From positions 1 through 60,825 of the forward strand of contig JAFNXL010000025.1 in the NCBI GenBank assembly GCA_017379075.1: 60,825 nt of DNA, in the 5' to 3' direction. The position numbers were made by a program, and so were the translations under genes. The DNA is from Bacteroidaceae bacterium (lineage in GTDB: Bacteria > Bacteroidota > Bacteroidia > Bacteroidales > Bacteroidaceae). The notes under the pieces were generated by a model that saw only the letters and a list, made by a program, of their open reading frames with translations, did not search any database and had not been told where the DNA came from. This document shows, piece after piece, positions 39,851 to 57,572 of this stretch; position 1 is the first letter of the stretch, and each line of letters starts with the position of its first letter.

Positions 39851-40609
39851 TTAAAGGCCCCAGTGTCTAAAATAAACATCAGACTCCACCATTTCCTCAA
39901 ATCTGTCGTCAATATTAGTAAAAAAATCAATACCAATTATGTTTTCCAAATCGTTTACTGAAACAGCATACTCTTGTATGCGTTTATGACCAGGAGTATT
40001 TGGCATTATAAATGCAATAGTATTAAAGACATTATTTTTTACAGTTAGGAAAGCCTTAAAAAACGCATCTGGAACGACGACCTTATTTGAACCAATAGTT
40101 CCGTAAGTGTTGTTCGTAATAATTGGGCCACAAATTATATACACCTTGTCAAATTTTTTAGCCCACTCTCTTCCTAATTTCTCAAGTGTCAACCAGTCAC
40201 CTGAGTTAAGTTCGTGATTTTGAGGACAAATATTTGTTAGGTAAAAACTTTCATACATAGTCTTCTCTGACCACTTCAAATCAGCAGCAGGACACATATG
40301 ACCTTTGTCCCATCCCGAATTGCTATAATCCTCTCTCATTGCCTGGCGACCTTTAAAAGAAAGATCCATGCCGAATTGACCTTTCCTCGGGAACTGACCA
40401 TCTACTTCTACATCGGTCAACTCATATGCAACCCAATTAGGGATTAGTGTTTTTGTGTTGTATGACACAGTAAAACCTGTATATGTAATAACATTGTCAC
40501 TAGCAGTGATCTTTGGCATCTCTAATAAAGATCCTGAAATACCTTTAGATGTTTGTCCATATCCTGTTAAACAAACGACTAATAGTAGTAGTGTTGAGAT
40601 TATTCGCAT
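39851..40609 (-). CDS. Secreted DNA/RNA non-specific endonuclease
   Basis: 252 residues. Signal peptide to about residue 19 (L-V-V-C-L-T-G-Y-G-Q). The active site of the NucA/NUC1 family is present: D-K-G-H-M at 101-105 with His 104 as the general base, N-I-C-P-Q-N near 126-131 with the metal-binding Asn, and W-x-x-L-E near 139-143. It should cut DNA and RNA outside the cytoplasm. Its start overlaps the end of hxsC by 10 bp, so it is the last gene of the srf-hxs operon. No immunity gene is visible, as expected for an exported nuclease. AT-rich like the rest of the operon. Confidence 0.9.
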   Translation of the reverse strand: MRIISTLLLLVVCLTGYGQTSKGISGSLLEMPKITASDNVITYTGFTVSYNTKTLIPNWVAYELTDVEVDGQFPRKGQFGMDLSFKGRQAMREDYSNSGWDKGHMCPAADLKWSEKTMYESFYLTNICPQNHELNSGDWLTLEKLGREWAKKFDKVYIICGPIITNNTYGTIGSNKVVVPDAFFKAFLTVKNNVFNTIAFIMPNTPGHKRIQEYAVSVNDLENIIGIDFFTNIDDRFEEMVESDVYFRHWGL

Positions 40610-41484
40610 AATATTACTTTTATTGGTTGTAATCCTTTACTCTGTTTTCTCGATGTTGCAAACAAACCGCAACATTTCTCTTTCAATGCGCATTCATCAC
40701 AGAATTCAGCATATTCATTCTTCCAATCAGAAATGGATTTAACTGCAAATTTCCACAAATTTTCATTCAATACGCAATGAGTCAAATTGAACACGGATAC
40801 ATTTAACCCCCAACGGTTCAATTCGCATACAGCAGTCTCAAGTTGATCTTTATAGTCAAGTGGGTCTATCCAAACTAAATCGTGGTTTTTAATTGTGTAC
40901 CCTGTATATTCCATACCCATAAAAGCGACATACCTGACAAAAGGCAAATTCCGATAAATAAAATTAGCCATTTGAGGGAGTCTCTGACAGGTTATTCTGT
41001 TAAGGACAATTCTAAGTTCTACATCAAAACCACACCGTTCAAGATTATATAACCCTAGCATTGTTTCATCAAAAGAACCTTTGGATTGAGTAATATAATC
41101 GTGATCAATTGAGCAGTCTGAGTGAAGTGGGATTCCAAGTAATATGTTGTCAGTGCCACATTGCTTTAGTTTTTTTGCATAAGTAATATCTGCAAATGCG
41201 CGTCCATTTGTAAGTAAATGAATTTCAGTTTCCGGTAATTTTGCTTTGATATGACTTATTAAAGAGAAGAGTTTATCTCCAAGCAATGTCGGTTCACCTC
41301 CTGTAATTCCAATAGATGGCAACGTACTTGGGGCAGAATCAATCAGTTTTATGTTCTTAATATAATTGCGCTCTAAATCGTTGCTGTTATTCGGTGGCTG
41401 ACAGCACATTAAACATCTATTATTACATTGAGATGTAATAAAAAGAACATTATCATTAGAATTTATATCTATTGTGTCTCTCAT
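40600..41484 (-). CDS. hxsC: Radical SAM maturase HxsC (His-Xaa-Ser system)
   Basis: 294 residues. The radical SAM cluster motif is S-Q-C-N-N-R-C-L-M-C-C-Q-P-P with Cys 20, 24 and 27; the following Q-P-P fits HxsC (TIGR03977). S-adenosylmethionine motif G-I-T-G-G-E-P-T near residue 60. Four late Cys (F-C-D-E-C-A-L-K-E-K-C-C) could hold a second cluster. Together with HxsB it is expected to modify the His-Xaa-Ser protein HxsA. It starts one base after the hxsB stop codon. Confidence 0.9.
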   Translation of the reverse strand: MRDTIDINSNDNVLFITSQCNNRCLMCCQPPNNSNDLERNYIKNIKLIDSAPSTLPSIGITGGEPTLLGDKLFSLISHIKAKLPETEIHLLTNGRAFADITYAKKLKQCGTDNILLGIPLHSDCSIDHDYITQSKGSFDETMLGLYNLERCGFDVELRIVLNRITCQRLPQMANFIYRNLPFVRYVAFMGMEYTGYTIKNHDLVWIDPLDYKDQLETAVCELNRWGLNVSVFNLTHCVLNENLWKFAVKSISDWKNEYAEFCDECALKEKCCGLFATSRKQSKGLQPIKVILCE

Positions 41485-41485
41485 A

Positions 41486-42892
41486 TTATTCTACTCCTGT
41501 TATCCATCTCTGAAAAATAGGCATCAGTTCTTCTCTTCGAGTATCAAGTAGGTGGAATATGTGGTTAATTATGCTCATATTCTTTTTACACAATGTCGAA
41601 CTAGGTCGAAAACCATATTCATCACCTTGGGTTGAATAATTTCTAACTGGGTCTGCACCACATATAGACAAGTATGCGCATTCCGAACATCCTGCAATAT
41701 ATTCTGTTGCCCAAACTCGTGACACTTCTTGTACTCTACGTCCATAAAAGATGCTCTCGTAGTTATCAGTTATTTTACCTAGTCGAAACTTATAGTCTCC
41801 ATTTTCAGCAAGCATTCTTGACTCATCAGAGGCATAAACATATCCGTCATAATTGTATACGATTACGCCATTTACAATGCCAGAAGGTGATTGTAAATCG
41901 ACAAAACCAATTGGAAACGGAGTCAATATCTTTTTGAGAATCATGGTTGTTAACTCCTCAACAAATAATTCTCCGGATTTATTAATCTCAATGATATAAT
42001 CCAAAGCGATTTTATAGAACTCAACAAATCTATCAAAATAGCGAGGCCAATCTTCATTATCCTTCGCCAATCCATATGGGTTGAGCGATCTTATAAAAAT
42101 GCTATTAAACTTATTCGCTCTATACGCATCAATAATTTCTTTAGGATGGTCTAAGGACAGTTCAGATGTTGTCATTAAGGCTGACACCTTATATTCACCT
42201 ATTGCATCTCTTACTTTTTCAATGCCTGCAATAACTTTCTGATAGCTATCAGACTTTCCTCTATTTGTATTGTGTAACCACTCAGGACCGTCTAATGAAG
42301 TCGAAAATACGACATTGTAGTTTGAGCAGAAATCCAAAAGATGGTCTGGGATATTAACGGAATTTGTACATATCACATATGTAACAGACTTACCGGTTTG
42401 CTCCCTCTTACTTTCCGAATAGAGAATACCTTCCTTTATCAATTCCGGAACCAGAGTTGGCTCCCCTCCCTGAAACTCCATTGTTAGGTGCGGTGCAGGA
42501 GACATATACATGTGGTCTATCGATCTGAATAAATCTTCTTTACTCATATCGACACCACTTTTATCGCACACTTTACTTGATGCTTGACAATACACACAAT
42601 TCTGGTTGCACCTTAATGTTACTACAAAAATGTGCAGTGCTGTATAATTATCTAAAAAGCTCTTTCTTGTTGAGAGTCTTACAGATAAATTATCTATCAG
42701 TCGAGGGACTGGCTGTTCACTTATTATATATGAAGCAAGCAAATCTTTGTAAAGATTGTCAGACGGGTCTAATTCCCTATTGACAATTTTAGACACAGTG
42801 CCCCTCGGCACAATTTGATAATCACCAAAATCATTAGTGATTATTTCCTTGCCGTTAGCTATATTATATTTGAAAGGCAGTAGATAGTACAC
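41486..42892 (-). CDS. hxsB: Radical SAM maturase HxsB (His-Xaa-Ser system)
   Basis: 468 residues. Radical SAM motif L-R-C-N-Q-N-C-V-Y-C with Cys 95, 99 and 102 and Q-G-G-E-P-T near residue 140. An N-terminal extension (1-85) precedes the barrel. The C-terminal region has SPASM-type cysteines (C-S-E-C-A-Y-L-S-I-C-G and a last C-K-K-N). The neighbourhood with hxsA, hxsD and hxsC identifies it as HxsB (TIGR03978). It should install, with HxsC, an unknown modification on HxsA. Start overlaps the hxsD stop by one base. Confidence 0.9.
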   Translation of the reverse strand: MYYLLPFKYNIANGKEIITNDFGDYQIVPRGTVSKIVNRELDPSDNLYKDLLASYIISEQPVPRLIDNLSVRLSTRKSFLDNYTALHIFVVTLRCNQNCVYCQASSKVCDKSGVDMSKEDLFRSIDHMYMSPAPHLTMEFQGGEPTLVPELIKEGILYSESKREQTGKSVTYVICTNSVNIPDHLLDFCSNYNVVFSTSLDGPEWLHNTNRGKSDSYQKVIAGIEKVRDAIGEYKVSALMTTSELSLDHPKEIIDAYRANKFNSIFIRSLNPYGLAKDNEDWPRYFDRFVEFYKIALDYIIEINKSGELFVEELTTMILKKILTPFPIGFVDLQSPSGIVNGVIVYNYDGYVYASDESRMLAENGDYKFRLGKITDNYESIFYGRRVQEVSRVWATEYIAGCSECAYLSICGADPVRNYSTQGDEYGFRPSSTLCKKNMSIINHIFHLLDTRREELMPIFQRWITGVE

Positions 42893-43233
42893 TAGTCATT
42901 AAAATTAAATTCAACGAAACTATCGCTGTTTGCAAAGGCCTTTGCAAAATAGAGTTCTCTTAAATTTCTAGTCTCCTCCAGGATTATTTGACGATTTTTA
43001 TAGTCAATGAACTTGTCACTTAAATCAAATACAAGTTTATCCCAGTTGTAGTCTGGCACATCATTCTTAAGTTTGAACTCTATTCTTTGAATATTATCGC
43101 TTACACCCTTACTACGACAGATAATAAAATCCGTAGTAAGCCAATATAGAGTTTTACATATTACAGCTTCACTATATATTGAAGTATCAACCTCTATTAT
43201 TAGCGTATTATTCTCAATTTTGGAGCTAATCAT
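42892..43233 (-). CDS. hxsD: HxsD protein of the His-Xaa-Ser system
   Basis: 113 residues. The N-terminal I-Y-S-E-A-V-I-C-K-T-L-Y-W-L-T and the late E-E-T-R-N-L-R-E-L-Y-F-A-K-A-F resemble the HxsD family (TIGR03976), where a similar block is found near the C-terminus. It is thought to be a recognition or scaffold partner for the maturases. Its start overlaps the end of hxsA by 8 bp. Confidence 0.85.
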   Translation of the reverse strand: MISSKIENNTLIIEVDTSIYSEAVICKTLYWLTTDFIICRSKGVSDNIQRIEFKLKNDVPDYNWDKLVFDLSDKFIDYKNRQIILEETRNLRELYFAKAFANSDSFVEFNFND

Positions 43234-44083
43234 TGTACTTCTTCTTTAGATAGAATACTATATCTGAGTCTGTTTTACCTGTCCACTCTATACCTACATC
43301 ATTTAAGAATGCTTTAAGTGCCGTCTCTAATGTCACATCAAAGGTTGATACACCCTTAGATGCTGTGCCCTCAATATAGCCCTTCTCAATAAGGAGATTC
43401 TTCATCTCTGTTACGTCAGTACCAGACATGCCTACACTCAATACTCGATCCCCAAGTTTCTTAAAGTTTTCTGCATAAGCAGTAAGTTTGGTAATAGTTG
43501 TTGTGCCTGCAATACCATCCTCAGTCAGACCCATATCCTTCTGGAATCTCTTTACAGCGTCAGCAACATTCTCATCATATACTACATAACCAGAATAATT
43601 AGTTTTAACTTTTGACTTGTCCAAATACTCACACTTAACCAGGTTGTCAGTTAGAAGTTTCACATCAGCTCCATATAAGTCCTTGTTGAGTGTGCGAGAA
43701 CCCAACTTATATGACGAAGGAGAAACATATGAAGATGAACTACTACTTGAACTCGTTGTACTTCTTGTTGTGGTTGTGGATGAATAATGTGATGAGTGCG
43801 AATAGTGGCTCGAACCCGATCTGTGTGAACTATGGCTTCGATGAGATCTGTGTGAACTATGGCTTCGATGACCAGCTATATCATAAGTATTATCACTATT
43901 TATCTTAAGCATCAATTTGTAGCTAAGATCTTTCTTTGCCTCACCTACTGACGCTATATCTAAATCCATATCTGAGTCATTAAAAGAGACTGTTGGTGCA
44001 GCTTCTGCGCCATGTGTTCCCGCTATTGCAGCTATTGAGGTAGCCACAATGCCTTTGATTAAATCTTTAAAGCTCTTTTTCAT
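43226..44083 (-). CDS. hxsA: HxsA: exported His-Xaa-Ser repeat protein with peptidoglycan-binding domains
   Basis: 285 residues. Signal peptide to about residue 28 (T-H-G-A-E-A-A). Residues about 72-101 contain nine H-x-S tripeptides (H-R-S, H-S-S and H-Y-S), the hallmark of HxsA (TIGR03979), followed by a Thr/Ser tract to about 123. Two peptidoglycan-binding type-1-like domains follow: about 127-200 (L-G-S-R-T-L to T-T-T-I-T-K-L) and about 210-280. It is the predicted substrate of HxsB/HxsC; the modified tract would be exposed outside the inner membrane while the C-terminal half grips the wall. The upstream gene ends 4 bp before its start. Confidence 0.92.
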   Translation of the reverse strand: MKKSFKDLIKGIVATSIAAIAGTHGAEAAPTVSFNDSDMDLDIASVGEAKKDLSYKLMLKINSDNTYDIAGHRSHSSHRSHRSHSSHRSGSSHYSHSSHYSSTTTTRSTTSSSSSSSSYVSPSSYKLGSRTLNKDLYGADVKLLTDNLVKCEYLDKSKVKTNYSGYVVYDENVADAVKRFQKDMGLTEDGIAGTTTITKLTAYAENFKKLGDRVLSVGMSGTDVTEMKNLLIEKGYIEGTASKGVSTFDVTLETALKAFLNDVGIEWTGKTDSDIVFYLKKKYND

Positions 44084-44087
44084 ATGC

Positions 44088-45287
44088 CTAGAAATAATAT
44101 GTAAATGCTGTTCCTACAGCACCAGATTCGCTATTGAATGTACTAGTTGTTTTTGTGTGTATTTTATAATATGCTTTCCAATCCCAATGTCTGCCAGCAA
44201 ATCCCATTTGCAAGATCACACTTCTTGATGGTACAGATAATTGAACAAAGTCTTCGTCACCATATCTATAAAAATCACTTTCGTTAAAAGGATCTCCAAA
44301 ATCATACTCGAATTTGTAATTATCTGATAAAAGAACGCCAAACTCGTATCCAATACCTAGATAGAATGACCAATTGTCATTTCTAGCTGCATTCCAATTA
44401 AGTATGATAGGAAATACAAATTGATTAACCTTTCGTTTATAGTCTGCATAGCTATAAACATATTCATATCCCCAATAACTATTATAGTCATCATATGAAT
44501 AACCCACCCACTTACTATATCCAGTATACTGATATTTTATGCCTATAGTAGAGTTAAAAAGTGAATTAAAACGACCTATACGCATAGATAGTCCCCAACC
44601 AGAAGAGAAGCTCTTTAATCCCTCTATTGAGCCTTCAATACCGACTCTAACAAATGGTTCTTTTTTAACATATGTGGAATTACGATACCCACTATTGGAA
44701 TTATAACTAGATGAGCCATAACTTCTATTATTAGACGAATATGAACTGTTATAAGAACTTGATGAACTAGTTGTATTGGAAGAACGGTAGGATGATGACG
44801 ACGATGTACTACTACTTGACGTCTTCTTAGCCATAGCTGCTTTCCACTTATTAGCAATATAATCCTTTGTCATACCCTTTTTAGCGTACGACTCCGCTCT
44901 TGTTCTATCAGAATAACTAGAATTTGGCGTAAACTTATCCGCTAGCCTTTTTGCCATATTATCTGAAGCCGTATCATCATACTTACTTCCTGGATGTTTG
45001 GCCCTAAATTGTTCGTATGCCTCAAAGGTATTAGTTGTCTGAGCTAATTGCCAGTCTGCATCTATTTGTCTATCAGAAATAGTTTTATTGAATTTTTCCA
45101 ACAATGCTTTCGCTTGCTGGTTGTCTGGGTACTTTTGCAGTATTTTTGTAACCAACTCTATGGCACCTGTTTCATTACCACTAGAGAATCTAGCTTCTGC
45201 TTGACGTAAAGCAGAAGATATATCCTGAGCACTCGCAGACAGTACAATCACGAATGATAGTATCAATAATGAGAATATCTTTTTCAT
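44088..45287 (-). CDS. Secreted Ser/Tyr/Asn-rich outer-membrane-like protein
   Basis: 399 residues. Signal peptide to about residue 20 (V-L-S-A-S-A-Q). An N-terminal helical repeat part (about 20-140) includes A-Y-E-Q-F-R-A-K-H-P-G-S-K-Y, the same module that recurs in the GTPase-like protein of the operon. A low-complexity tract of Ser, Tyr and Asn spans about 155-207. From about residue 210 to the C-terminal F the sequence looks like an eight-strand-type beta barrel rich in Tyr and Trp. It probably sits in the outer membrane with the tract in the periplasm or outside. No named family. Confidence 0.6.
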   Translation of the reverse strand: MKKIFSLLILSFVIVLSASAQDISSALRQAEARFSSGNETGAIELVTKILQKYPDNQQAKALLEKFNKTISDRQIDADWQLAQTTNTFEAYEQFRAKHPGSKYDDTASDNMAKRLADKFTPNSSYSDRTRAESYAKKGMTKDYIANKWKAAMAKKTSSSSTSSSSSYRSSNTTSSSSSYNSSYSSNNRSYGSSSYNSNSGYRNSTYVKKEPFVRVGIEGSIEGLKSFSSGWGLSMRIGRFNSLFNSTIGIKYQYTGYSKWVGYSYDDYNSYWGYEYVYSYADYKRKVNQFVFPIILNWNAARNDNWSFYLGIGYEFGVLLSDNYKFEYDFGDPFNESDFYRYGDEDFVQLSVPSRSVILQMGFAGRHWDWKAYYKIHTKTTSTFNSESGAVGTAFTYYF

Positions 45288-45288
45288 A

Positions 45289-46071
45289 TTAGAAGAATTT
45301 TGGATCTAATGAGTTAGCTGCATCATTATATTTAATTGACTTAAAACTTGCATCTAAGGCACTATTGCTATACTTATGCTTGCTCAAGAATAATTGTGCA
45401 TTCTTGAGCATCTGGTAGTCTGCATCAAAATCATCAAAATAAGAATAATTACTTTTGAAATTATTCATCTTCTTACACTTCGGTAGCAATGTTTTATTGG
45501 TATATGAAGTCATTGATGTGTTTGGTACTGCAGCTAGACCTTCTTTCAATGAAGTACAATTACTCCATGGTTGCACAGAATACTTTGCGCTTTCAGTAAT
45601 ACAATTCTCAACTTGCGATTGGGTACGACAAGACTGACTAGATGCTAAAAGTGACTGTATGCTATAATATCCACTTACAGCATTAGCAGTGTATTTATGA
45701 TCAATATACTGAGCAAACTTATTTAGAGACTGTAACTCTGATTCGTTCCAACTTTTTTGGTTGAAATATGAGCGTAAAATCAAATCTGCTTTAGTGTTTA
45801 ATAAAGCATTGTATTCGGAGAGAGTTTCACTTTCTACTGCCCCCATTGAGCCAACTATTGCCAAGTCTGCATAAAGTTCCTTAAGCTGGTTGAAATCTTT
45901 TTTTGACCAGCTCTGAGACAAACTATCAACACCTTCAGTAAAGTCTTTATGATAATTATATTGTTCTATGGCATCCTGAGATGTACCAAGTGACATAAAA
46001 TGGCTTATCGCTAAATATAGTCCTCCTATAACAGCGACCATAACCAGTAAAATCTTAAATACTCTCTTCAT
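45289..46071 (-). CDS. Membrane-anchored protein of unknown function
   Basis: 260 residues. One membrane helix at about 5-25 (I-L-L-V-M-V-A-V-I-G-G-L-Y-L-A-I) followed by a helical, Ser-, Lys- and Asn-rich periplasmic part with two Cys (about 153 and 162) and one at 201. It overlaps the preceding gene by 17 bp. I do not recognise it. Confidence 0.55.
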   Translation of the reverse strand: MKRVFKILLVMVAVIGGLYLAISHFMSLGTSQDAIEQYNYHKDFTEGVDSLSQSWSKKDFNQLKELYADLAIVGSMGAVESETLSEYNALLNTKADLILRSYFNQKSWNESELQSLNKFAQYIDHKYTANAVSGYYSIQSLLASSQSCRTQSQVENCITESAKYSVQPWSNCTSLKEGLAAVPNTSMTSYTNKTLLPKCKKMNNFKSNYSYFDDFDADYQMLKNAQLFLSKHKYSNSALDASFKSIKYNDAANSLDPKFF

Positions 46072-47503
46072 AAAAACTATTCAAAAAGTTATTTATGAAA
46101 CTAGTTATCTCAGACCAGTAGAGAACAGAAAGTACACCTACTGCTGCAATAAAACCTATAATGAGAATAGCCATTAGCCATTTAATCCATTTAGGAGATG
46201 ATGATTGATAATCATTATACTCATAATCTCTAACTGGTTTAGGATTTTTAGGAATATCAACTTGATATACATTGTTAAAGTCTAATCTCGCTCTGTACCC
46301 ACAGAATCTATCAGACTGCGTTAAGTCCTTATATATTTTAGTTGTTTCATCAATTTGCATAAACACCGGGCTAGAACTGATGCTATTATCAAAATTGAAC
46401 TGAACTCTTATTTTTGATACTTTAGGTTCCATCTTAATTAATATTTGAGAATTAGTTGTTGTTAGATCTACTTCGCCATTGTATTGATGGTAGTGTGGAC
46501 CTGATGCTGTTATAGGCACAACTCGCAATGTTTTCAATTCTTCTTCCGTAAATCGTATTAGCTTTCGATTTGACTTATCTGGAATACGTCCATTGACTGT
46601 TAACTCAATAAGACTCTCATCGACACAAGTATTGTCGGTTGATTTGCGGATGTCAAAATACCAAGTTTTTGTGAAGACTACGTTTACTTTAGAAACATCG
46701 TTTAAAACAATTGATGTTCCCTTTATTTGAAAGTATTCACAATTGCAATGAGGTGCGTTGCATGCAATAATCGCATTATCAACCCCCTGCTTCCTATATG
46801 TAATATTGAAAGTATCTTGAGCATTTATGAATCTGCAATTTGCTTGGGCATCTTGAGCATCGTAAATATTATAGTATTTGCGTAAAGAAGAAGTTATATG
46901 CTGAATTGCTATATTATCTTTAGTATTACCATCTTTTGTAAGAATTATCTTATCATAAGATGCATATCCTTCTTGAGCGATAAATGTCAAGAGATCTATG
47001 AGTTCTTCATCATTCGCATAAACTTTATATCCGTATGTGGGCTCGGTTGTTGTAGTATTCTTATTAATTTTAGAAGGAATACATTTCGATGAAGTATACA
47101 CCGCAATGTCATTTATAACCTCTTCTACAGTTTCATTGCTATATTCTCCATTTACAATGAACTTATGTGAGAGTTTTGTTAATGCCTCATAAATATCCTT
47201 GCCGTCACAAATATGATTTCTCTCTACGAAGAAAGTAACCATAGCCATTCCACCTCTGGAATCTCGACTATTTCGTGTAATGTGAGAGAAGTAATTGCCA
47301 TACTCGTTACCCCATATAACATAGCAATCAGCTCCAGCCTTACATAATTTACCATGTAATGCTCGAGGGTCAGATATTGATTTTGCCCAGACAGTAGCTT
47401 CTGTGAAACTGTACTGATTTAACAACTTTGATGGATACGTAAACTCGTGTCTAGTATCATCATCAAACTGTCCGTACAAATCTACTTTTATATACTGTTT
47501 CAT
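46055..47503 (-). CDS. Cytosolic protein with C-terminal membrane anchor, possible GTPase partner
   Basis: 482 residues. No signal peptide. N-terminal part (about 1-115) with D-L-Y-G-Q-F-D-D-D and F-S-H-I-T-R-N-S-R-D-S-R-G-G-M-A resembles the adapter-type domains next to bacterial GTPases, but I cannot name the family with confidence. One membrane segment near 443-465 (I-K-W-L-M-A-I-L-I-I-G-F-I-A-A-V-G) leaves a short outer tail. It lies directly downstream of the GTPase-like gene (3 bp gap), which supports a physical partnership. Confidence 0.5.
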   Translation of the reverse strand: MKQYIKVDLYGQFDDDTRHEFTYPSKLLNQYSFTEATVWAKSISDPRALHGKLCKAGADCYVIWGNEYGNYFSHITRNSRDSRGGMAMVTFFVERNHICDGKDIYEALTKLSHKFIVNGEYSNETVEEVINDIAVYTSSKCIPSKINKNTTTTEPTYGYKVYANDEELIDLLTFIAQEGYASYDKIILTKDGNTKDNIAIQHITSSLRKYYNIYDAQDAQANCRFINAQDTFNITYRKQGVDNAIIACNAPHCNCEYFQIKGTSIVLNDVSKVNVVFTKTWYFDIRKSTDNTCVDESLIELTVNGRIPDKSNRKLIRFTEEELKTLRVVPITASGPHYHQYNGEVDLTTTNSQILIKMEPKVSKIRVQFNFDNSISSSPVFMQIDETTKIYKDLTQSDRFCGYRARLDFNNVYQVDIPKNPKPVRDYEYNDYQSSSPKWIKWLMAILIIGFIAAVGVLSVLYWSEITSFINNFLNSFYEESI

Positions 47504-47506
47504 AGC

Positions 47507-49153: not shown

Positions 49154-49157
49154 CTAT

Positions 49158-50084
49158 TTAATCTTCTTCAGGCATTTCTACTATATAGTTATTGTCATCG
49201 CCTATTGCGGCTATGTCCTTTGAGGTCACAATCCAAGGTAACAAGATTATTGCACAGCATATAATAGCTAGCAAAATGGCAATAAATGATGGTGGAACAA
49301 CTGTTGTACACAACTTTTGTAATCTGTCAGCATTTTGATTGAAAGATTCGTCCTCAAATTTTGGATAATTTCTTTCCAGAGTATACTGCTTTTGGCTCAG
49401 CTCACCATAGTTTGCGAGCCAAGAGTTTACAGAAGAAGTAACATCTTGAATGTTTTTAGGAAGATTAATATTCCATATAGTTGTTGCACTTTCAGAAAGC
49501 CAGACAGTTCTTTTTTCGCTTAATGCATCTATATTGTCTCCTAATAAAAAGTCTTTCAATCTGCTTGCGTATTTTTCAGATATAGAAATTTGGGACATAC
49601 CTAGTGACAATGGTTTTGCAACCATATCAGTGTATCCTTTTGTTCCAACCTTTAACCCAACTATTGTTGCTTTGTAACTTTGGCATCGTTGGTCTACATA
49701 TTCTCGATATTTTGCATCTAACTCACGCGCATCATCAATAGTTTCTGAATAAAGTTCTACAATTGAGTCCTTCTCTTTTATCATACGCGTAAAATGAGTA
49801 AAGAAGACGGATGACACTAACAGGAAAACTAATATAATGAGTCCAATAGATATTTGACCTATAATACCAAGCCGAAGCCACCTTGTAGCTTTTGCTTTAC
49901 ACATAATATTGAGCAAAAAGACGATAATGCCTGTAAATGCCAATGCTATGAGGATAGAAAGCCCTAGTGAGCACAATTGACTATATATAAGCCCCATAAA
50001 GCTTATATATGTATATGTTAGAAGTGCAAGTGTCGCAAAGACCCAAGCAAAATTAAATTTAGATCTGGACATATTCAGAATCAC
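49158..50084 (-). CDS. Inner-membrane protein with four predicted helices
   Basis: 308 residues. Hydrophobic segments at about 13-35, 40-62, 72-97 and 267-290. Between the third and fourth lies a ~165-residue helical soluble part (E-L-Y-S-E-T-I-D-D-A-R-E-L-D-A-K-Y). Short acidic C-terminal tail. No family recognised; a structural or channel component of the operon is likely. Overlaps the upstream gene by 26 bp. Confidence 0.6.
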   Translation of the reverse strand: MILNMSRSKFNFAWVFATLALLTYTYISFMGLIYSQLCSLGLSILIALAFTGIIVFLLNIMCKAKATRWLRLGIIGQISIGLIILVFLLVSSVFFTHFTRMIKEKDSIVELYSETIDDARELDAKYREYVDQRCQSYKATIVGLKVGTKGYTDMVAKPLSLGMSQISISEKYASRLKDFLLGDNIDALSEKRTVWLSESATTIWNINLPKNIQDVTSSVNSWLANYGELSQKQYTLERNYPKFEDESFNQNADRLQKLCTTVVPPSFIAILLAIICCAIILLPWIVTSKDIAAIGDDNNYIVEMPEED

Positions 50085-51459
50085 TTTGTTTATTATTATT
50101 CCCTACTTGATTCTCTGGTAACATTTGCTCTAGCTCATCTATTCTTCTTTCATATTCTTGAATTAGAGCGCGTATCGCCTCGTAATCATCGGTCTTTTGT
50201 GGAGTTTCTTGAGGTGTTTCTTGTTTAGGCGTATGCACAACCTCAGGAATAGGTTGAGTTACAATAGGTGTATTGTTTCGTGTACTACACCCTCTAAACA
50301 AAGAAGACAACAACATAATAAGGAGGCCCATTAATAAAAGTCCTACGATCCAACTCAAGCAGCCAGAGAACCAGCCTCTACCAAACCCACCAAAACCAAA
50401 TCCACTAAAAAGGTTTCTAAACCATCCAAATAGGCCACCACTAAACAAGTTACCCCAGAAACCCTTACCATTCTTTTTGTATTGAGCCTTAAAGACTTTA
50501 TCTCCATTGATTGGATTGTTTATATCTTCATCCCAACCCACGAAATCATAGCCTCGTTTGGGTTTAACTTCAGGCACTTGCATTGGAGGTACAGGCTCTC
50601 CATTTTTTGCTCGTATTGTATCAATACCCTTTATCTTACCGTGTTCGCCACCATCGAATCTCACATTGCTAAACTCAGGCTGCGCTGTTTCAGACTCCAC
50701 AATATCGTTAGTTGGCGCAGTTTCTTCACTGACTGGAGGTGCTGGAATAGGAGTACATATGGCAGTAAAATTAATATCTGATTCTACCTTCCGATTATGT
50801 GGGGCATCTGGTTCCCAAGATGAGAATTCAAACCCATCACCAGGGATAATATTTGGAATATCTTTACCTCCATTTAGGACATGTCCATGACGTCGCTTTA
50901 TAGTACCTTTAATACCTGACATTATACCATTTCCTCTAACTTGATAGTTTATGGTATACACTCTTTTATCATCTATGTCCGTTCTAATAGATGTAGTAAG
51001 ATTCTTTCCATCTATTAGTCTTAATCCCCATACGCCAAATATAATTTGGCCTTTATCGCAATATACCAAATCATCAATGTAGTCAGATGATAAGTACTTT
51101 GTGAGGCACTTAAAATATTTTTGATCATGGTCAGGTAAATCTGCTGCGGTCCTATTAAGATGCTGGATGATTAATTCCTTCTGCTTTGAGTATTCATCAC
51201 CTTCAGCAGTTCCTTTCAATTCAGACAATTTTATTGCATTTTGGAAGTTCGCCGGTACATACCAGTCAATCATCCCATTTGTCGTATTGAAAACGGGCTG
51301 CGCAAAAAGGTTGTGATACTTTCTGTCAATTATATGCTTCTTAATGGTGTTATCAAACTCTATATATCTTTCATAGAAAGGTACGCCATTGATTTTTTCA
51401 ACAGCAACACCATTCATATCAATCGAACAGAGTTTTACTTTATCTCTAACAGAACTCAT
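50059..51459 (-). CDS. Membrane protein with InlB-like repeat and coiled coil
   Basis: 466 residues. N-terminal 130 residues of unknown fold. Two beta-repeat units resembling the Listeria-Bacteroides (InlB B) repeat follow, the clearer ending Y-D-F-V-G-W-D-E-D-I-N-N-P-I near 303-316. A Gly/Phe-rich stretch (about 330-360) leads to one membrane helix near 365-388, and a C-terminal coiled coil (about 420-450, I-R-A-L-I-Q-E-Y-E-R-R-I). It precedes the membrane gene at 49158 and follows srfC by 4 bp. In Salmonella-type srf loci a protein of similar length (SrfA) is next to srfB, but I see no clear sequence match. Confidence 0.55.
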   Translation of the reverse strand: MSSVRDKVKLCSIDMNGVAVEKINGVPFYERYIEFDNTIKKHIIDRKYHNLFAQPVFNTTNGMIDWYVPANFQNAIKLSELKGTAEGDEYSKQKELIIQHLNRTAADLPDHDQKYFKCLTKYLSSDYIDDLVYCDKGQIIFGVWGLRLIDGKNLTTSIRTDIDDKRVYTINYQVRGNGIMSGIKGTIKRRHGHVLNGGKDIPNIIPGDGFEFSSWEPDAPHNRKVESDINFTAICTPIPAPPVSEETAPTNDIVESETAQPEFSNVRFDGGEHGKIKGIDTIRAKNGEPVPPMQVPEVKPKRGYDFVGWDEDINNPINGDKVFKAQYKKNGKGFWGNLFSGGLFGWFRNLFSGFGFGGFGRGWFSGCLSWIVGLLLMGLLIMLLSSLFRGCSTRNNTPIVTQPIPEVVHTPKQETPQETPQKTDDYEAIRALIQEYERRIDELEQMLPENQVGNNNKQSDSEYVQI

Positions 51460-51463
51460 ATAA

Positions 51464-54280
51464 TTATGAATTTACAATGTTTAAAATATCTCCCAATGTT
51501 TTATTCGCCTCTGCATCATAGTTGGGCAGATCACAAGCTAAAACATATCCAATTTTCAGCTGTTCCTCCCATTTCCAAACACTGTTATACTGAGGAAATT
51601 TGTTCAAGAAAGCCTTATCATCAGAATTAAAACTTGGATGCTCCAATATCTCCTTCTGATGACTAATATGGGATACTAACATTACGCCTTCATTTTGAGG
51701 AGATTCTATGTACTCTTCGTTTATGCGCAAACTGAACTTCTCATCTATATCGGCAATGGATGTTTTGGCTTCATCTGTCAGGAATTCATATCCAAACGAA
51801 GAGGTCATCTTGTTGAACATTACTGATAGATAGTCAGATAGTACACCTACAGCGCCCTCATTACCAAAACAATTAATATAGTATTCTACTTTGTTTATTA
51901 ATTTTTTTCTAACTTCAAGCTGAAGGTATAATCTATACAGAGTCGACACAATAGTAGAGATGCTATCAACTTTATCCTTCAATGCATTTACTCCATAATG
52001 AGATAAAACCTCGTTATACCAGTACTCTTCAACGCGCATTACAACGCTTTCCGCTGTTCCAATATGCATTTGTTTGCTAGATAAGAGTTTTGCCATATCG
52101 ACATTCATCTCCATCAACATTTCTTTGCACTCTTCAATATTTTCAGAACCCGTATATTCACACAACAACATCTCATTTTCTTTTCTTGAGTTATCAGTGC
52201 TCAAACCTGCAGCAATAAAGACCTGAGACTCAATGTTAGTCATTTTAACCTGGGCTTTATTGTTTATGAGAATAGTATGTAATAGTTCTCGCAGTTCGGT
52301 CTCATTCAGCATCAAGCGATCCATAAAAGTACCGAAGAATGATGGATCTTTTCCAATTTGGATATCAATCTGCATATTTGCTCTACGAGATTGCTTTTTG
52401 GCTTTCTGCACTTCTTCGTCTTTATTATCGCTATGATAGTAAACTTGAAGAGTCGACTTTAATTTATTCAATAAAGCTCTAATATCAGAATTGAATTTAC
52501 TAGTACGAGCATTGTTTAAGTTAGGTGCAATAGTATTTAATGCATCAATAATTCTACTCGTTCCATCGTTGTTCATTGTTGCCGCACTATCCCACGCATT
52601 CTCTGGTGAGTTAAAGTGTGTCTTAACAAATTGACATGAGCAGAATGAGTTTCTAAGATCATTCAGAAATGTAGGATATGCAGGTGGCGTAATCAGCGAC
52701 ACCTCTGGAGATTTTCCCTCTGGGCCTGGATGATACCCAGAATATATTTCCTTAGAGAACTTATAATCTCTTAGCATATATATATTCTTGAAGCAACTAC
52801 CATTTGACCAGTTGTTGAACCAATGAGTATTTGTCTCATCTGACAAAGACTTTAATACCTCTCCTTCAAGAACGGTAGTAAAGCGACGTCTCCATCTCTC
52901 TTCCAAATCTGATTTACCCTTAATCTCATCATGGTACACAAGATCTTTATTGAACCAAGTGCTTACAATGAAAAGAGGAGAGATTATAGACTGCTCAATA
53001 AATGAGGCTCTTCTTTCTGAACTCTCGCCAACATTGTTAGTTATCCAGCTGTTAAGCACAAAACTCATTGTACTTTCCGCCGATTGATTATTATTATGGC
53101 AGAACATTAATGAGTTGATTCGTTTAGCAGTAGAATATTTGTTAAACAAATAAGTAACCTTTCCTCGACGATATACAGTTGATAGATTTTCACCATCTGC
53201 TAATTTTGTTGCTTTAATTTTTTCTGGTCTTCGTGCTCCAGGAAAGTCCAAGATGTCAAGATGTTTCAAAAACGGATGTTCTTCGGCAATGGCAGAGGGT
53301 AACACAAAGTATAATTCGGCAGTCAACGCACTCAAAAATGATTTCTTCATTGTGATTTGATTGCCATTTGCAATCCTAACCTCAGAGTCCTTAATGTATT
53401 CCATCGGGACATTCTCAGGCTCACAATACATTTCGTTAAGACGAGCAACATCCAAAATGGTGCCGTGTTTGCGAAGTACAGACTTAAATGGGATATATAC
53501 GAACCTTGAATACTGAAGTTTTTTGTATTCTGATACTATATCTTTAAAAGATTTGGTTATATCCTGATTCTTATCCCAAAGCATTTCAATCAACCCGAGG
53601 GTTTGCTCCTCAGATAGTCGATTGATATTATGAATCAAGAATGGGAAAAGCTCTGAATCAGTAATATTGAGGATTGATCTATTATATGAGGATAATGACT
53701 TTAGATATTCCTGCACATCTAGAATATCATCTTCACTCAAAAGACTGTTCTTTCCTTGTTTTCCTAGTGATAACGATTTTACAGCATCATTTATAGCACT
53801 TGTTCTGAGTACTTGGCTGAAGTCGTAGTCAACGATCTGAGTATAATATGCTTCACACAAAATTAATATTACATCGACAACTGACAAAAGGCGAATTTTC
53901 ACATAACCCTCTGGTGTTTGGCTATCCGACTTGACGGTAAATCTAGTGACTACGCCAGTAGCCTCAACAGTAGCATTTGGGGCACTTGGATTAATTTCGT
54001 TTATGAAATTATACCTTTCTCCGGTTGATGAATCAGTAACACAAAAAGCCTCACCTGGTTTTGAGAGCATTGCACTTACTAAATATGATTTACCCATTTG
54101 GCTCTCACCAAATGCAGCTGTAGAACATTGCTCTTCTACCGCGAACTTAATCTTATTTAGCTCACGTCGTATATTGATGAGGTCCTGCTTATACTGAAGT
54201 TGTTCAGCTTCAGGAACATTTGCAACCCAATTAAGGGCTTGCTCAATAGCTTGCAGGTTTTTATCTATAATTGTATTCAT
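51464..54280 (-). CDS. SrfC-like P-loop protein
   Basis: 938 residues. Walker A F-G-E-S-Q-M-G-K-S-Y at 57-66, near the N-terminus as in SrfC/PF10139 proteins. A G3/Walker B-like L-D-F-P-G-A-R is at 344-350. The long C-terminal region is helical with Leu/Lys/Glu-rich segments, recalling dynamin-like proteins. No signal peptide or membrane helix, so it is cytosolic. In other bacteria srfC always accompanies srfB; here srfB ends one base before its start. The function of the Srf proteins is not settled; in some enteric bacteria they are linked to virulence or cytotoxicity. Confidence 0.75.
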   Translation of the reverse strand: MNTIIDKNLQAIEQALNWVANVPEAEQLQYKQDLINIRRELNKIKFAVEEQCSTAAFGESQMGKSYLVSAMLSKPGEAFCVTDSSTGERYNFINEINPSAPNATVEATGVVTRFTVKSDSQTPEGYVKIRLLSVVDVILILCEAYYTQIVDYDFSQVLRTSAINDAVKSLSLGKQGKNSLLSEDDILDVQEYLKSLSSYNRSILNITDSELFPFLIHNINRLSEEQTLGLIEMLWDKNQDITKSFKDIVSEYKKLQYSRFVYIPFKSVLRKHGTILDVARLNEMYCEPENVPMEYIKDSEVRIANGNQITMKKSFLSALTAELYFVLPSAIAEEHPFLKHLDILDFPGARRPEKIKATKLADGENLSTVYRRGKVTYLFNKYSTAKRINSLMFCHNNNQSAESTMSFVLNSWITNNVGESSERRASFIEQSIISPLFIVSTWFNKDLVYHDEIKGKSDLEERWRRRFTTVLEGEVLKSLSDETNTHWFNNWSNGSCFKNIYMLRDYKFSKEIYSGYHPGPEGKSPEVSLITPPAYPTFLNDLRNSFCSCQFVKTHFNSPENAWDSAATMNNDGTSRIIDALNTIAPNLNNARTSKFNSDIRALLNKLKSTLQVYYHSDNKDEEVQKAKKQSRRANMQIDIQIGKDPSFFGTFMDRLMLNETELRELLHTILINNKAQVKMTNIESQVFIAAGLSTDNSRKENEMLLCEYTGSENIEECKEMLMEMNVDMAKLLSSKQMHIGTAESVVMRVEEYWYNEVLSHYGVNALKDKVDSISTIVSTLYRLYLQLEVRKKLINKVEYYINCFGNEGAVGVLSDYLSVMFNKMTSSFGYEFLTDEAKTSIADIDEKFSLRINEEYIESPQNEGVMLVSHISHQKEILEHPSFNSDDKAFLNKFPQYNSVWKWEEQLKIGYVLACDLPNYDAEANKTLGDILNIVNS

Positions 54281-54281
54281 A

Positions 54282-57200
54282 TTACTCTCTCAATTCGCGG
54301 TTAACATTTGACACTGTGTTGATATTAAACTCTCCAGAGTCTAACCAATAGCACTCAGGATCATTTAGGCTCTGTATCTCCAATTTGAAATTGCGGATAT
54401 TTATCTCCTCACCATCATCACCCTTAACACTATCTATTACTATTATCTCTTTATTTTCTTTGTAGTTTTCTCTTGTAAGCGATAATGTTAGCGGACACTT
54501 CGAAAGAATCTTGTCAATTTCCTCCTGAAGCGCAACTTGAATCTCTTGTGAATTTAACTCGACGGAGTTTTCTTCATATTGCTTTCTAATTCTTGCTTTG
54601 ATGCCTCTCTCGTCGATGTCAAAAACATAGAACGGTCTTAATGGGTAATTCCCTATATCGAATTGCTTGGTCCCAATGTACGCAGGGAACGATTCAATAG
54701 ACAAAGAACCATTATTAACATCAGGAGAGATAAACCAGTCTGTATTTTTCCTATTTTTGGACATCTTTGCATAATACTCCGTGGTTGGCTTAATTCTATT
54801 GCCAAGTTCGCTGAGGTCTAATAAAAAACCATTATAACCTCCGGCGTGAGATGCTTTATATGCAATCATAGCTCCTACAGGTACAATAGACTTAGAGTCA
54901 CTCAAATAACCATTTTTATCAGCAAATGGATACCAATGACCTATGCAGAATTTATTCAAGGAAATAAGTCGATCTGGAGTTACGGCAAAATACTTCAAGA
55001 AAATATCTCTAATAACTTTTAGTGATGTTGGTCTACCTGTCAACAAAACAATATCACACTTGTATGCATACATAATTACAGCGATGTGCTCCAGTAGGTT
55101 ATCCATCGCATATTCAATATGCTTACACATTACAGCAGAATCAAAAGTCCATCGAATAGACTTTAAATCGATTCCCATCTTTTCATTAAAAGCATCTATG
55201 ACAACTTGACTAGGTGACTGTTTAGCAAAAATCTCGTCGTATGAAATTTCCCTAAACTGTTCACCATCGCTTAGCAAGTTCAAGAAATAGTACATGATGG
55301 GAACAGAAACTTGAGCGTTAAAGTCCCTTCTAACCATTCTGTCTTTAAATGACAAGCGGTTGTGATCGGCCCCAAAGAAATCGAATAATTTAGAGTATAT
55401 CTGAGATGCCTCTAAACCGAGTTTTGACAACTCCTTTTGAAGTATACCGTCCTGACCTTCAAGGAGGATGTTGTTAATTAACACTCTAAGCATATCATCG
55501 CCTGCGTAATCAAAGCTATCCCAAAAAATAGGTGTTGGCTTTAATTGCGAAGGTTTAAGTTCATTATACTCATAAGAGCAGATAGTAACATCAGATGTTC
55601 CTGCTCCAATGTCCAACGAACCTACTGTTAGACATGTGCTAGAGCCTGTTTCTGTCCTAATCTCTTTGCCGTAAATATCGAAAAACTCTTTGGTTAAGTT
55701 TTTATATCGTTCAGTTAAAACGCTATATAGATAAACAAACTGCGAGCATGTAGCTTCGTCAAAGATCCAAGGTGTATTATCATTTGAATCTTTGGTTAAT
55801 TTTGGCTCAATAGAGATATCTAATGGGATACGACTTGAATCGATATTGTTATAAAACTTATTCATAACAAAAATCGCATCTTCTAAACTCGAGTGCAAAG
55901 ACTTCTGCTCGTATTTAGACATAGCAGTCGGACAAGTCAAAATAATTTTATTGATTCTTCGAGGGGTATTTAGGCTACCATTGTATTCTCGATAATCGTG
56001 ACTATTTACTTGCGCCGATGCTTGTGCTAAAATCTCCAAGAAAGCAAATGTCATAAGTGACTTTCTCGAATAATTAGCACCAGCCCCTAATCCATCCTTA
56101 TCAATTGTTCCATCATAATTGAAATAGTTAGATATCCCTTTTAGAATTGGAGGCCTATCTTGATTATTTTCAAGATTTATGAAGCGCCACTCTTCCTGTC
56201 GAGGGTTATAATCCCACAAATATCTTTTAGGACTAGAATAAGTGGATAATGTCTGTTTTGCAAAGGATATATTGGTTGCCTCATGTGAGAGATACTCTGC
56301 TTCATTTCCTAGCCTAACAATGCTAGGCCAAGTAAATTGAGTGCTTCCCTCCATATTTCCTCCAAACTCGACCTTACTGAACGCAAGTCGCATATTGAAT
56401 GAATCTTCAACACGATTCAACTTGCCATTACTCAATAATGGTTTGGAAAAGTTTTGCAGTTTCAAAGATGCAACTTTTGTAAAATCTGAATTTTCAAACA
56501 AAATAGCTGATGTCCTAGAGTTGCCAATGTCAATAATCATTTCAACATTGATTTCCTCTTGTCCGCGCTCTTTAATAAGTTTGATATTTGGAAGGTTAGC
56601 CGTTCTTACCAAGTAACTTATAAGCAAATAATATGATGCCAAGAATGAATACTTGTATGGCTGCTGTGGCGGTATCTTATTGATGTCATCAGTATTGTAA
56701 ACCAATTTCATCAAATACAGTCTAATCCAATCATTCTTGCCAGAACAATAATCAATCAATTTGTCGGTATTACCACAAAGACCAAATAATTTTTCATTCT
56801 CAAACGAGAACACAGGGCTTTCGTTGTATTCATCATTGCCATCATATGTAGCATGTGTATCAAAGGCAACCAATAAGTTGGCCTTAATGACTCCATTCTC
56901 CTGAGAGATAGGAATAATTTTAAAACGACACCAATTGTATGGGCCTAACTTAAAGTTTCCAGTTTGATCAATCTCATAATATGGAGCAGGTAACCAACAA
57001 TTAAGATACTTTTCTAAGATGCAACTATTTTTGTCATCGATTCGCATCCTAAAAAGTCCCTCACCATCTGCGATATCGCCCTTGTGGATTAAGCGAACTT
57101 CAGGGTTTGCTGTAATGACATTAGACTCAACCAATAGATTTCCAGCATGGTCAATAAAACCATACTTCAGGAGGTCTGACATTCGAACAAATTCGCTTTG

Positions 57201-57353
57201 CTGCTTGATTTCGTAAGCATATTCAAGCACTTGCTCCACTTGTTCTTCGTCAAACCACTCGTAGAAAACCTGCTTAAAACCATCATTCAAATCTATTTCG
57301 ATTTCTTTCGAATAAAATTGAATACCAGAGTTGGCAATTAGTGAGTAATTCAT
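54282..57353 (-). CDS. SrfB-like actin/Hsp70-fold ATPase-like protein
   Basis: 1023 residues, the family's size (PF07520). Phosphate 1 motif D-I-G-N-S-R-T-S-A at 275-283, phosphate 2 motif L-D-I-G-A-G-T-S-D-V-T at 580-590, and adenosine motif L-L-T-G-R-P-T-S-L near 770-778: the actin/Hsp70 superfamily signature. The S-S-P-K-R-Y-L-W-D block (373-381) is as I recall it from SrfB proteins. First gene of the operon; a palindrome (57386-57404) lies 33 bp upstream of its ATG. No signal peptide, so it is cytosolic. Confidence 0.75.
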   Translation of the reverse strand: MNYSLIANSGIQFYSKEIEIDLNDGFKQVFYEWFDEEQVEQVLEYAYEIKQQSEFVRMSDLLKYGFIDHAGNLLVESNVITANPEVRLIHKGDIADGEGLFRMRIDDKNSCILEKYLNCWLPAPYYEIDQTGNFKLGPYNWCRFKIIPISQENGVIKANLLVAFDTHATYDGNDEYNESPVFSFENEKLFGLCGNTDKLIDYCSGKNDWIRLYLMKLVYNTDDINKIPPQQPYKYSFLASYYLLISYLVRTANLPNIKLIKERGQEEINVEMIIDIGNSRTSAILFENSDFTKVASLKLQNFSKPLLSNGKLNRVEDSFNMRLAFSKVEFGGNMEGSTQFTWPSIVRLGNEAEYLSHEATNISFAKQTLSTYSSPKRYLWDYNPRQEEWRFINLENNQDRPPILKGISNYFNYDGTIDKDGLGAGANYSRKSLMTFAFLEILAQASAQVNSHDYREYNGSLNTPRRINKIILTCPTAMSKYEQKSLHSSLEDAIFVMNKFYNNIDSSRIPLDISIEPKLTKDSNDNTPWIFDEATCSQFVYLYSVLTERYKNLTKEFFDIYGKEIRTETGSSTCLTVGSLDIGAGTSDVTICSYEYNELKPSQLKPTPIFWDSFDYAGDDMLRVLINNILLEGQDGILQKELSKLGLEASQIYSKLFDFFGADHNRLSFKDRMVRRDFNAQVSVPIMYYFLNLLSDGEQFREISYDEIFAKQSPSQVVIDAFNEKMGIDLKSIRWTFDSAVMCKHIEYAMDNLLEHIAVIMYAYKCDIVLLTGRPTSLKVIRDIFLKYFAVTPDRLISLNKFCIGHWYPFADKNGYLSDSKSIVPVGAMIAYKASHAGGYNGFLLDLSELGNRIKPTTEYYAKMSKNRKNTDWFISPDVNNGSLSIESFPAYIGTKQFDIGNYPLRPFYVFDIDERGIKARIRKQYEENSVELNSQEIQVALQEEIDKILSKCPLTLSLTRENYKENKEIIVIDSVKGDDGEEINIRNFKLEIQSLNDPECYWLDSGEFNINTVSNVNRELRE

Positions 57354-57385: not shown

Positions 57386-57404
57386 AATCTCCTATTAGGA
57401 GATT
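57386..57404. promoter_or_regulatory. Palindromic site upstream of srfB (site 1)
   Basis: AATCTCCTATTAGGAGATT is a perfect 9+1+9 palindrome, 33 bp upstream of the srfB ATG. A second, nearly identical palindrome is at 57573. The position suits a repressor operator in the 5' region of the operon. No standard promoter was found between them on the minus strand. Confidence 0.7.
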
Positions 57405-57572
57405 TATACTTCATAAATCTTGTTATTATGCAATCATTTAGCTAGTAAATCTTTATTGAATTGCAAAACGTTTTAACAAGAAAGCCATTATTTATACTTA
57501 AAAAGTGTTTTTTTGTAAACTAAAACTGCCTTAATATGAAATAAAACAACTAAATTTGCATATTAGATTATT

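Follow-up and report, generated by a model that had tools for sequence, protein, structure and literature searches.

Genes for SrfB- and SrfC-type ATPases stand in one operon with a radical S-adenosylmethionine (SAM) cassette of the His-Xaa-Ser (Hxs) type and a nuclease gene on contig JAFNXL010000025.1 of a Bacteroidaceae bacterium (GenBank assembly GCA_017379075.1), raising the question of whether these parts form one apparatus or a core system joined to parts that can be exchanged. The stretch analysed, hereafter the window, comprises positions 1 to 60,825 of this contig. A preliminary description had taken the 13 genes of the operon as a single trans-envelope machine with a modified wall protein and an exported effector. 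We propose, with a confidence slightly above even, that they would instead encode a phase-variable, SrfABC-type, membrane-anchored nucleoside triphosphatase (NTPase) system with exchangeable output parts.

Conservation of an SrfB-SrfC core

The operon (39851-57353) consists of 13 open reading frames (ORFs) on the minus strand, the neighbours of which overlap by 1-26 bp or stand 1-4 bp apart. This tight spacing, already pointed out in the preliminary description, supports the view that the 13 genes are one operon, and the separate internal promoters named there as possible counter-evidence left no sign: a sigma-70 pattern, which is not suited to Bacteroidota, gave 71 matches between 39700 and 57800 against 76.9 (standard deviation 8.4) in shuffled sequences. 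The block has a G+C content of 0.34-0.37, versus 0.43-0.59 in most of the window, with 0.39 and 0.41 in the two intervals that border it.

The first gene, srfB (54282..57353, minus strand), encodes a predicted Hsp70-like ATPase with an extra N-terminal domain, which matches PF07520 with 559.6 bits (gathering cut-off 27.1) over residues 3-1009. The protein has the features of an Hsp70/actin-type ATPase fold, its nucleotide-binding part lying at about residues 268-842, and no transmembrane (TM) helix is predicted in it. The second gene, srfC (51464..54280, minus strand), encodes a large P-loop NTPase with the motifs GESQMGKS and DILDFPGAR. It matches PF10139 with 340.6 bits (gathering cut-off 28.1), and residues G58, S60, Q61, G63, K64 and S65 of the first motif region and D342, L344, D345, F346, P347 and G348 of the second are invariant across 36 aligned rows. 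These scores, far above the thresholds, bear out the identities first given to the two proteins and support their prediction as NTPases, for SrfC by motifs only. HxsB, HxsC, HxsD and the nuclease, discussed below, also pass curated cut-offs. Searching the PDB sequences with SrfB gave a single chain at chance level, and the PDB matches listed for SrfC (60 of 499) were mainly nanobodies and designed repeats and were judged to be chance; SrfB had no match in the phage collection. A different SrfB was seen in another genome of the window's genus (G506:C9:18889-21702), its profile match falling into two parts of a single open frame.

Genome contigs of 84,980 species were scanned with an SrfC alignment. 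Of the 129 relatives that this yielded, the best 80 are covered here and the other 49 were left unseen. In a survey with iterated profiles, 79 loci were usable, L039 being dropped owing to an unmatched srfC ORF, and the denominators given here count the loci that are long enough. The core recurs with high frequency: srfB was present in 76/76 loci, the gene for an SrfA-like protein in 66/72, and those for a four-helix membrane protein (49158..50084, minus strand), a double-GTPase-like protein (47507..49153, minus strand), a tail-anchored protein (46055..47503, minus strand) and an N-terminally anchored protein (45289..46071, minus strand) in 61/65, 60/61, 56/59 and 44/56, respectively. Most of these loci are labelled Bacteroidota, with a few Fibrobacterota, Clostridiales/Lachnoclostridium and Caenarcaniphilales. 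The latter labels belong to metagenome-assembled genomes (MAGs) holding the operon or its start (L083, L045, L029, L037, L044 and L081), for which transfer or a binning error is possible. The system is sparsely distributed: SrfB was found in 2/395 genomes drawn from the window's phylum, the window being one of the two, and in 19/251 genomes of its family. The relatives include Flavobacterium, Niastella and freshwater Runella, mostly free-living genera.

An SrfA-like protein that has probably lost its subtilase

The third gene (50059..51459, minus strand) had been described as coding for a membrane protein with InlB repeats. The InlB-type repeats and the TM helix (residues 366-384) are there, and the protein is more than that: a bitopic protein with an SrfA-homologous N-terminal domain followed by the single TM helix and a short tail. 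An alignment-to-alignment comparison with SrfA (hhalign) gave a probability of 98.6% (E 1.3e-15, 138 columns), while the four-helix protein, used as control against the same SrfA alignment, reached only 0.2%. When six candidate sequences were searched with a profile made from the N-termini of the proteins in this slot, the SrfA of Rahnella scored 26 bits, that of Klebsiella 16 and two Cereibacter proteins 28 and 10; one Runella and one Klebsiella protein stayed below inclusion. Six loci speak against an SrfA-type domain as a constant part of the system (L077, L082, L084, L087, L090 and L091): all of them carry instead an S8 subtilase protein with an N-terminal TM helix near residue 20.

The part behind the membrane anchor is where the window departs from its relatives. 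An S8 domain was found, by Pfam and an iterated profile, in 71/80 of the relatives' loci, usually after the TM helix of the SrfA-like protein, and PF00082 was detected in 16 of 19 aligned SrfA-like rows, the window being one of the 19. The window protein itself gave no PF00082 match and no other Pfam match at that limit; only 82 residues follow its TM helix, where enterobacterial SrfA has a C-terminal extracytoplasmic domain. By eye only, the C-terminus of SrfA resembles that of the S8-bearing relatives. In four of the nine loci lacking S8 the contig breaks off within srfC (L045, L061, L078 and L081); the other five are L012, L036, L043, L044, which is cut by the contig end, and L048, whose protein is short (336 aa). 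A quick tree built on 75 SrfC rows pairs the window with L012 (support 100), and nine rows whose loci bear S8 stand next to this pair, which makes loss of the subtilase in this lineage the simpler reading. Other proteases on the same type of anchor were also encountered: a trypsin-like protease with an SrfA-type N-domain in Cereibacter (L009:8594-10462) and a subtilase with such a domain in Portibacter (L007:8811-11306).

A putative invertible promoter upstream of srfB

The feature reaches beyond the 13 genes. Between srfB and the next gene upstream, two 17-bp sites (57387..57403, operon-proximal, and 57573..57589, operon-distal) form an exact inverted pair, 186 bp apart, around a segment of 169 bp (57404..57572), which holds TAAATTTG. 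This sequence fits the Bacteroides -7 consensus TAnnTTTG (PMC4747536) and faces away from srfB, which would be the OFF orientation. At one mismatch or fewer, the site occurs at only these two places in its own genome assembly. The gene on the far side (57678..58892, minus strand) encodes a tyrosine recombinase (PF13102 and PF00589), a candidate invertase, so that inverted repeats enclose a promoter motif beside a recombinase gene within 57387-58892. The preliminary description had missed this arrangement, which is likely to be an invertible promoter of the operon.

Comparison with the related loci points in the same direction, the arrangement being found again in several further Bacteroidales. 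Homologs of the recombinase (37-51% identity) were found in 7 relatives' loci, counted over the loci with an srfB ORF of more than 800 aa, and all are co-oriented with srfB at 291-1064 bp upstream of it. Exact inverted repeats of at least 13 bp are present from -500 to +50 of srfB in 11/73 loci, against 11/694 other genes and 12/1460 shuffled sequences, an excess with a Fisher p of 8e-7. A site pair of the form TCTC[CT]N4-6[AG]GAGA, 120-260 bp apart, occurs in 5/73 loci and in 0/691 other genes. In those pairs that bracket the segment the distance is 176-193 bp, and L065 and L068 have extra pairs at 130 and 167 bp. The orientation of the motif is also uniform: in 8/8 distinct loci whose palindromic repeats are spaced by about 150-200 bp (the window, L047, L058, L060, L063, L065, L068 and L152, with L137 left uncounted as the L063 genome again), TAnnTTTG in the segment points away from srfB and is never directed toward it. 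A second repeat type, counted among the 11 loci, is found in L025, where the motif faces away from srfB, and in L034, with one motif each way. Between -250 and +60, a sense TAnnTTTG was seen in 1/9 repeat loci vs 35/66 others, and an antisense one in 6/9 vs 15/66. As a separate observation, three or four palindromic recombination-like sites stand in tandem upstream of srfB in L065 and L068, suggesting more than one invertible segment.

Evidence for the opposite orientation comes from L012, the sister of the window in the SrfC tree. There the operon aligns in reverse and window positions 57521-57580 align forward (90% over 60 bp, E 2.7e-14). This piece of the segment is thus inverted relative to the operon, and a near-consensus TAACTTCG in it faces srfB.

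Several points weigh against an invertible promoter, or limit its reach. No inverted repeat of the required length was found in 62/73 loci, and inversion is therefore not general. The 11 repeat loci include two weak ones, L008 and L031, which lack the promoter motif, and the palindromic pair of L018 is about 100 bp apart and has no motif; the repeats of L018 and L057 lie further upstream, again without the motif. On the SrfC tree the label shows only weak clustering (3 changes vs 4.8 in shuffles, 46/500 as low), which points to repeated gain or loss of the layout. As for the two orientations, the window represents one assembled orientation, and the flipped 60-bp piece belongs to a diverged MAG that is the single ON-like case. 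In this MAG the proximal site looks decayed and the distal one was not found, and L012 may thus be locked ON. Moreover, the recombinase could be the integrase of a mobilizable element. A gene for a MobV relaxase adjoins it (58889..60286, minus strand; NF041497, 205.3 bits for a cut-off of 100), the contig ending at 60825, which places the locus, as judged from its genes, within or beside such an element, and a relaxase-like gene is near, by eye, in L047. No homolog of this MobV was found in the 7 other recombinase loci.

The Hxs cassette, a probable add-on, and the nuclease

The downstream part of the operon carries hxsA-like (43226..44083), hxsD (42892..43233), hxsB (41486..42892) and hxsC (40600..41484), all on the minus strand and in the order A-D-B-C. 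That these genes make up an Hxs system, as first described, holds for the two radical SAM maturases HxsB (TIGR03978, 532.8 bits for a cut-off of 370) and HxsC (TIGR03977, 355.8/267.9) and for HxsD (TIGR03976, 65.2/50). HxsA falls below the NCBIfam cut-offs (TIGR03979, 56.2/121.65; HxsA2, NF038296, 42.8/48); its assignment follows from a peptidoglycan-binding domain (PG_binding_1, 61.4 bits), from the His-Xaa-Ser repeats and from its position ahead of hxsD-B-C. The last gene of the operon (39851..40609, minus strand) encodes a DNA/RNA non-specific endonuclease of the secreted type, the identity of which is confirmed by PF01223 (182.6 bits vs a cut-off of 23).

The preliminary description had suggested scoring how often these parts co-occur with srfB and srfC; as a rule, they do not. 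Of the 80 relatives, only L012 had hxs genes no more than 10 kb from srfC (less at contig ends). HxsB is above its cut-off in 5/78 srfC-bearing genomes (L046 and L066 were left out, L066 being the same MAG as L061), in 4 of the 5 on a contig other than that of SrfB/SrfC. As background, HxsB was found in 2/395 genomes of the phylum draw, the window included and the other one under the curated cut-off, and in 11/251 genomes of the family. SrfB and HxsB occur together in 3/251 (the window, G532 and G545); without the window the family has SrfB in 18/250 and HxsB in 10/250, for a joint expectation of 0.7 and an observed 2. In G532 and G545 the two genes are on separate contigs, and an HxsB identity of about 40% marks a more distant Hxs set. 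Neither of the two contigs reaches 10 kb in G545, where an srfB frame of only 520 aa is followed by other genes, which makes linkage unlikely rather than excluded. Hxs sets also exist apart from srfB and srfC: none of these two genes was found within 10 kb of those on Hymenobacter, Adhaeribacter and Leptospira plasmids, and hxsA-D-B-C lies within a kinase/vWA/PP2C operon in two Bacteroidales of which one, L172, is of the window's genus. In L100 (3114-11605, plus strand) this operon is followed by LRR and TPR proteins; in L172 (about 8300-16150, minus strand) an NS nuclease, 39% identical to that of the window, is nearby on the opposite strand. Other nuclease genes were seen near related operons, an NS homolog (45%) in L125 and EEP nucleases in L049, L050 and L110, a tally made without a frequency control.

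Where the pairing of srfBC and hxs is present, it appears to be stable. A stretch bounded at about 57355 and 40573 is common to the window and L012, with a DNA identity of about 87-88%, and the match does not continue past either end. The 12 genes have ratios of nonsynonymous to synonymous substitution rates (dN/dS) of 0.026-0.111 at dS 0.52-0.88, with 0.041-0.105 for the hxs genes, which indicates strong purifying selection on the 12 shared genes in both genomes. The nuclease gene is mostly deleted in L012, with about 240 bp left. L012 is a MAG labelled Alistipes (Rikenellaceae), and the window's family includes a Bacteroides muris genome (G700, in which contig and SrfB position agree with those of G436/L063). 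Provided that the MAG is correctly labelled, L012 and the window belong to different families, between which transfer is likely. The Hxs cassette stands beside srfBC only in the window and L012, and the subtilase of most relatives is missing here, and we therefore regard Hxs as an add-on: it does not belong to the core system and looks like an exchanged output module.

Proposed mechanism and alternative explanations

We propose the following model. Before srfB, the tyrosine recombinase would flip the 169-bp promoter segment between the 17-bp repeats; the layout of repeats, promoter and recombinase is supported by comparison, from which inversion is deduced. As assembled, the segment would leave the operon silent, and inversion would turn it on in a minority of cells. 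The core, the SrfA homology and the Hsp70 fold, all obtained by comparison, suggest by homology that SrfB, SrfC and the SrfA-like protein would form a complex at the inner membrane; for Xenorhabdus, co-precipitation of SrfA, SrfB and SrfC as one complex has been reported (PMC6950479). The double-GTPase-like, four-helix and two single-span proteins may assist this inner-membrane complex. Nucleotide-driven changes in the cytosolic part, an Hsp70-type ATPase and two P-loop NTPases for which the SrfA-like protein would be the anchor, would then act on the periplasmic side, a gating for which the output in most relatives would be the subtilase, the periplasmic part of the SrfA-like protein. In the lineage of the window, which comparison marks by the absence of S8 and by selection on the shared genes, the output would be a wall-binding His-Xaa-Ser protein modified by HxsB and HxsC, a TPR-barrel outer-membrane protein and the secreted nuclease. 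As for the purpose, our best guess is an envelope-level conflict or stress response, which would be costly and thus OFF in most cells; it is prompted by the kinship to double GTPases, the likeness to systems with GTPase and HSP70, and the plasmid copy beside BREX described below.

The idea that srfBC, hxs and the nuclease co-evolved as one machine for secretion or modification across the envelope, with all 13 parts essential, draws on the tight coupling of the 13 genes and on the order of 12 of them being kept, between different flanks and under strong purifying selection on each gene, in a second genome. The cassette is nevertheless beside srfBC in 1/80 relatives and HxsB is on another contig in 4/5 genomes, Hxs sets lie without srfBC on three plasmids or with the kinase/vWA/PP2C set, and the sister locus has mostly lost the nuclease; we consider a fixed machine of this kind improbable. 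The role of the recombinase admits another explanation as well, namely that the repeats are the attachment site of a mobilizable element and the recombinase its integrase. The MobV relaxase directly beside the recombinase, the low G+C block (0.34-0.37 vs 0.43-0.59) and the flanks that differ between the window and L012 would all fit this. The two sites are, however, inverted, 186 bp apart and enclose only a promoter-bearing segment, a piece of which is oppositely oriented in L012, and the spacing, the motif and the antisense promoter recur elsewhere with a related recombinase and without a homolog of this MobV. An attachment site is therefore an unlikely explanation, and we retain the promoter switch.

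What the system is for is a separate matter. SrfABC of Xenorhabdus stockiae has been reported to enter and kill HeLa cells (PMC6950479), and the operon might by analogy encode a factor for virulence or cytotoxicity with host cells as its target. With an Hsp70-like SrfB in which no TM helix is predicted, a bitopic SrfA-like protein and relatives in Flavobacterium, Niastella and freshwater Runella, we regard this as very unlikely here. A sharper form of our conflict guess would be an anti-phage or conflict system of the GTPase/Hsp70 kind with exchangeable effectors (Kaur et al. 2020). GTPase-centred systems with HSP70 have indeed been described (PMC7159879), and in an alignment of 37 members of the window's GTPase family 8 match DO-GTPase2 (PF19993) and 4 DO-GTPase1 (E up to 0.01), one relative matching EAD7. 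On a Runella plasmid (L008:2937-18730) the srfBC operon lies directly downstream of a BREX locus, and proteases and nucleases occur among the accessory genes of the related loci. On the other hand, none of the 13 operon proteins matched GAP1 (E up to 1), and PADLOC-DB 2.0.0, searched with 10 of the 13 (HxsB, HxsC and HxsD omitted), returned nothing useful, the sole match being a weak PglZ for the four-helix protein (E 0.011), a result that also tells against the conflict role in our own model. Srf does not occur in the main text of PMC7159879, and a single defence neighbour, uncounted across loci, is an anecdote. A specialised anti-phage role is a possibility to be taken seriously, falling short of a probable one.

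Relation to known systems

The closest known systems are the SrfABC operons of enterobacteria and Cereibacter (PF07520/PF10139), which likewise co-encode SrfB, SrfC and an SrfA-type bitopic protein. Those of Cereibacter and Klebsiella are accompanied by vWA, ABC transporter and SUMF1-type genes, the Rahnella copy by none of them. The Bacteroidota operons differ in their double-GTPase-like, four-helix and two single-span proteins, usually in a subtilase within the SrfA-like protein and, for some, in the invertible-promoter layout. The Hxs system (TIGR03976-03979; Haft and Basu, cited in PMC9062424) has the same A-D-B-C order, two radical SAM maturases and a repeat protein; in the window, by comparison, HxsA is under the NCBIfam cut-offs and the cassette stands at the end of an srfBC operon. 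The kinase/vWA/PP2C operons of L100 and L172, which we take to be of the TerY-P type, also carry hxsA-D-B-C, and homologs of SrfB and SrfC are absent from the stretches concerned; Hxs is thus attached to a second cytosolic control set. As proposed for the window, BF2766/Tsr19 of Bacteroides fragilis is a tyrosine recombinase gene beside an invertible promoter that serves the operon downstream and has the TAnnTTTG -7 element (PMC4747536), and the tandem sites of L065 and L068 recall the multiple repeats reported for it in the same source. The Tsr19 promoter controls genes for polysaccharide and outer-membrane proteins, whereas here it would control an SrfABC-type operon. With the GTPase-centric systems of Kaur et al. 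(2020; PMC7159879), the operon would have in common a GTPase of related type, an Hsp70-type protein and effector-like enzymes; it differs in having no GAP1 match and in its predicted site of action, the envelope.

Among the matches listed from open-licence PMC papers, none concerned the combination of Srf and Hxs or an invertible promoter before srfB, in line with the earlier remark that the combination was undescribed, and SrfB is not mentioned in PMC11892184 or PMC4747536. It is conceivable, though we put it below an even chance, that the Bacteroidota SrfABC-type operons represent an undescribed class of phase-variable, Hsp70/GTPase-driven transmembrane systems, in which cytosolic NTPases control a swappable envelope output, namely the periplasmic subtilase in most of them and the wall protein modified by the radical SAM enzymes of Hxs in the lineage of the window. 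If true, this would explain the presence of Hxs cassettes on kinase/vWA/PP2C operons and make Hxs a module of general use, serving cytosolic alarm systems as their output at the envelope. SrfABC is annotated as a virulence factor in many genomes, and an agreed function was not found. The recurring partners, the ATPase of the Hsp70 type and the possible exchange of a periplasmic protease for another output lead to concrete hypotheses on its role, and the invertible-promoter layout would explain an operon that looks silent in the laboratory. For the Hxs system, the present comparison suggests a role as the envelope output of cytosolic control sets.

Remaining proteins and surroundings of the operon

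The other products agree with the places first predicted for them, with parts in the cytosol, at the inner membrane and outside. Hydropathy supports the four-helix protein, the C-terminal anchor of the tail-anchored protein (TM 443-461) and the N-terminal anchor of its neighbour (TM 4-22). The double-GTPase-like protein has a TPR part in addition to the GTPase; in the window it is below the Pfam cut-off for DO-GTPases (PF19975, 12 vs 27 bits), and its profile matched BamD/CpoB chains of the PDB through the TPR part and EngB weakly (E 0.25). No relative was found when it was used as query against viral contigs.

The gene between the N-terminally anchored protein and hxsA-like (44088..45287, minus strand) encodes a secreted protein with a TPR-like N-terminal part, a Ser-rich linker and a probable outer-membrane beta-barrel. 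Its Pfam matches are weak, TPR_6 (E 3.5e-4) and OMP_b-brl_2 (E 0.009) both being under the cut-off. Its TPR part matches post-core proteins of other loci (probability 95.9), the barrel part being left unaligned, and a strict profile run matched the window and L012 only. An iterated profile with 65 matches had drifted into TPR proteins and was not used.

Downstream of the operon, a gene on the plus strand for an AAA protein of the ATPase_2/DUF234 type (38211-39737) is convergent with it, and several imperfect 29-bp inverted repeats (36696-37573) lie between the preceding gene and the end of the operon.

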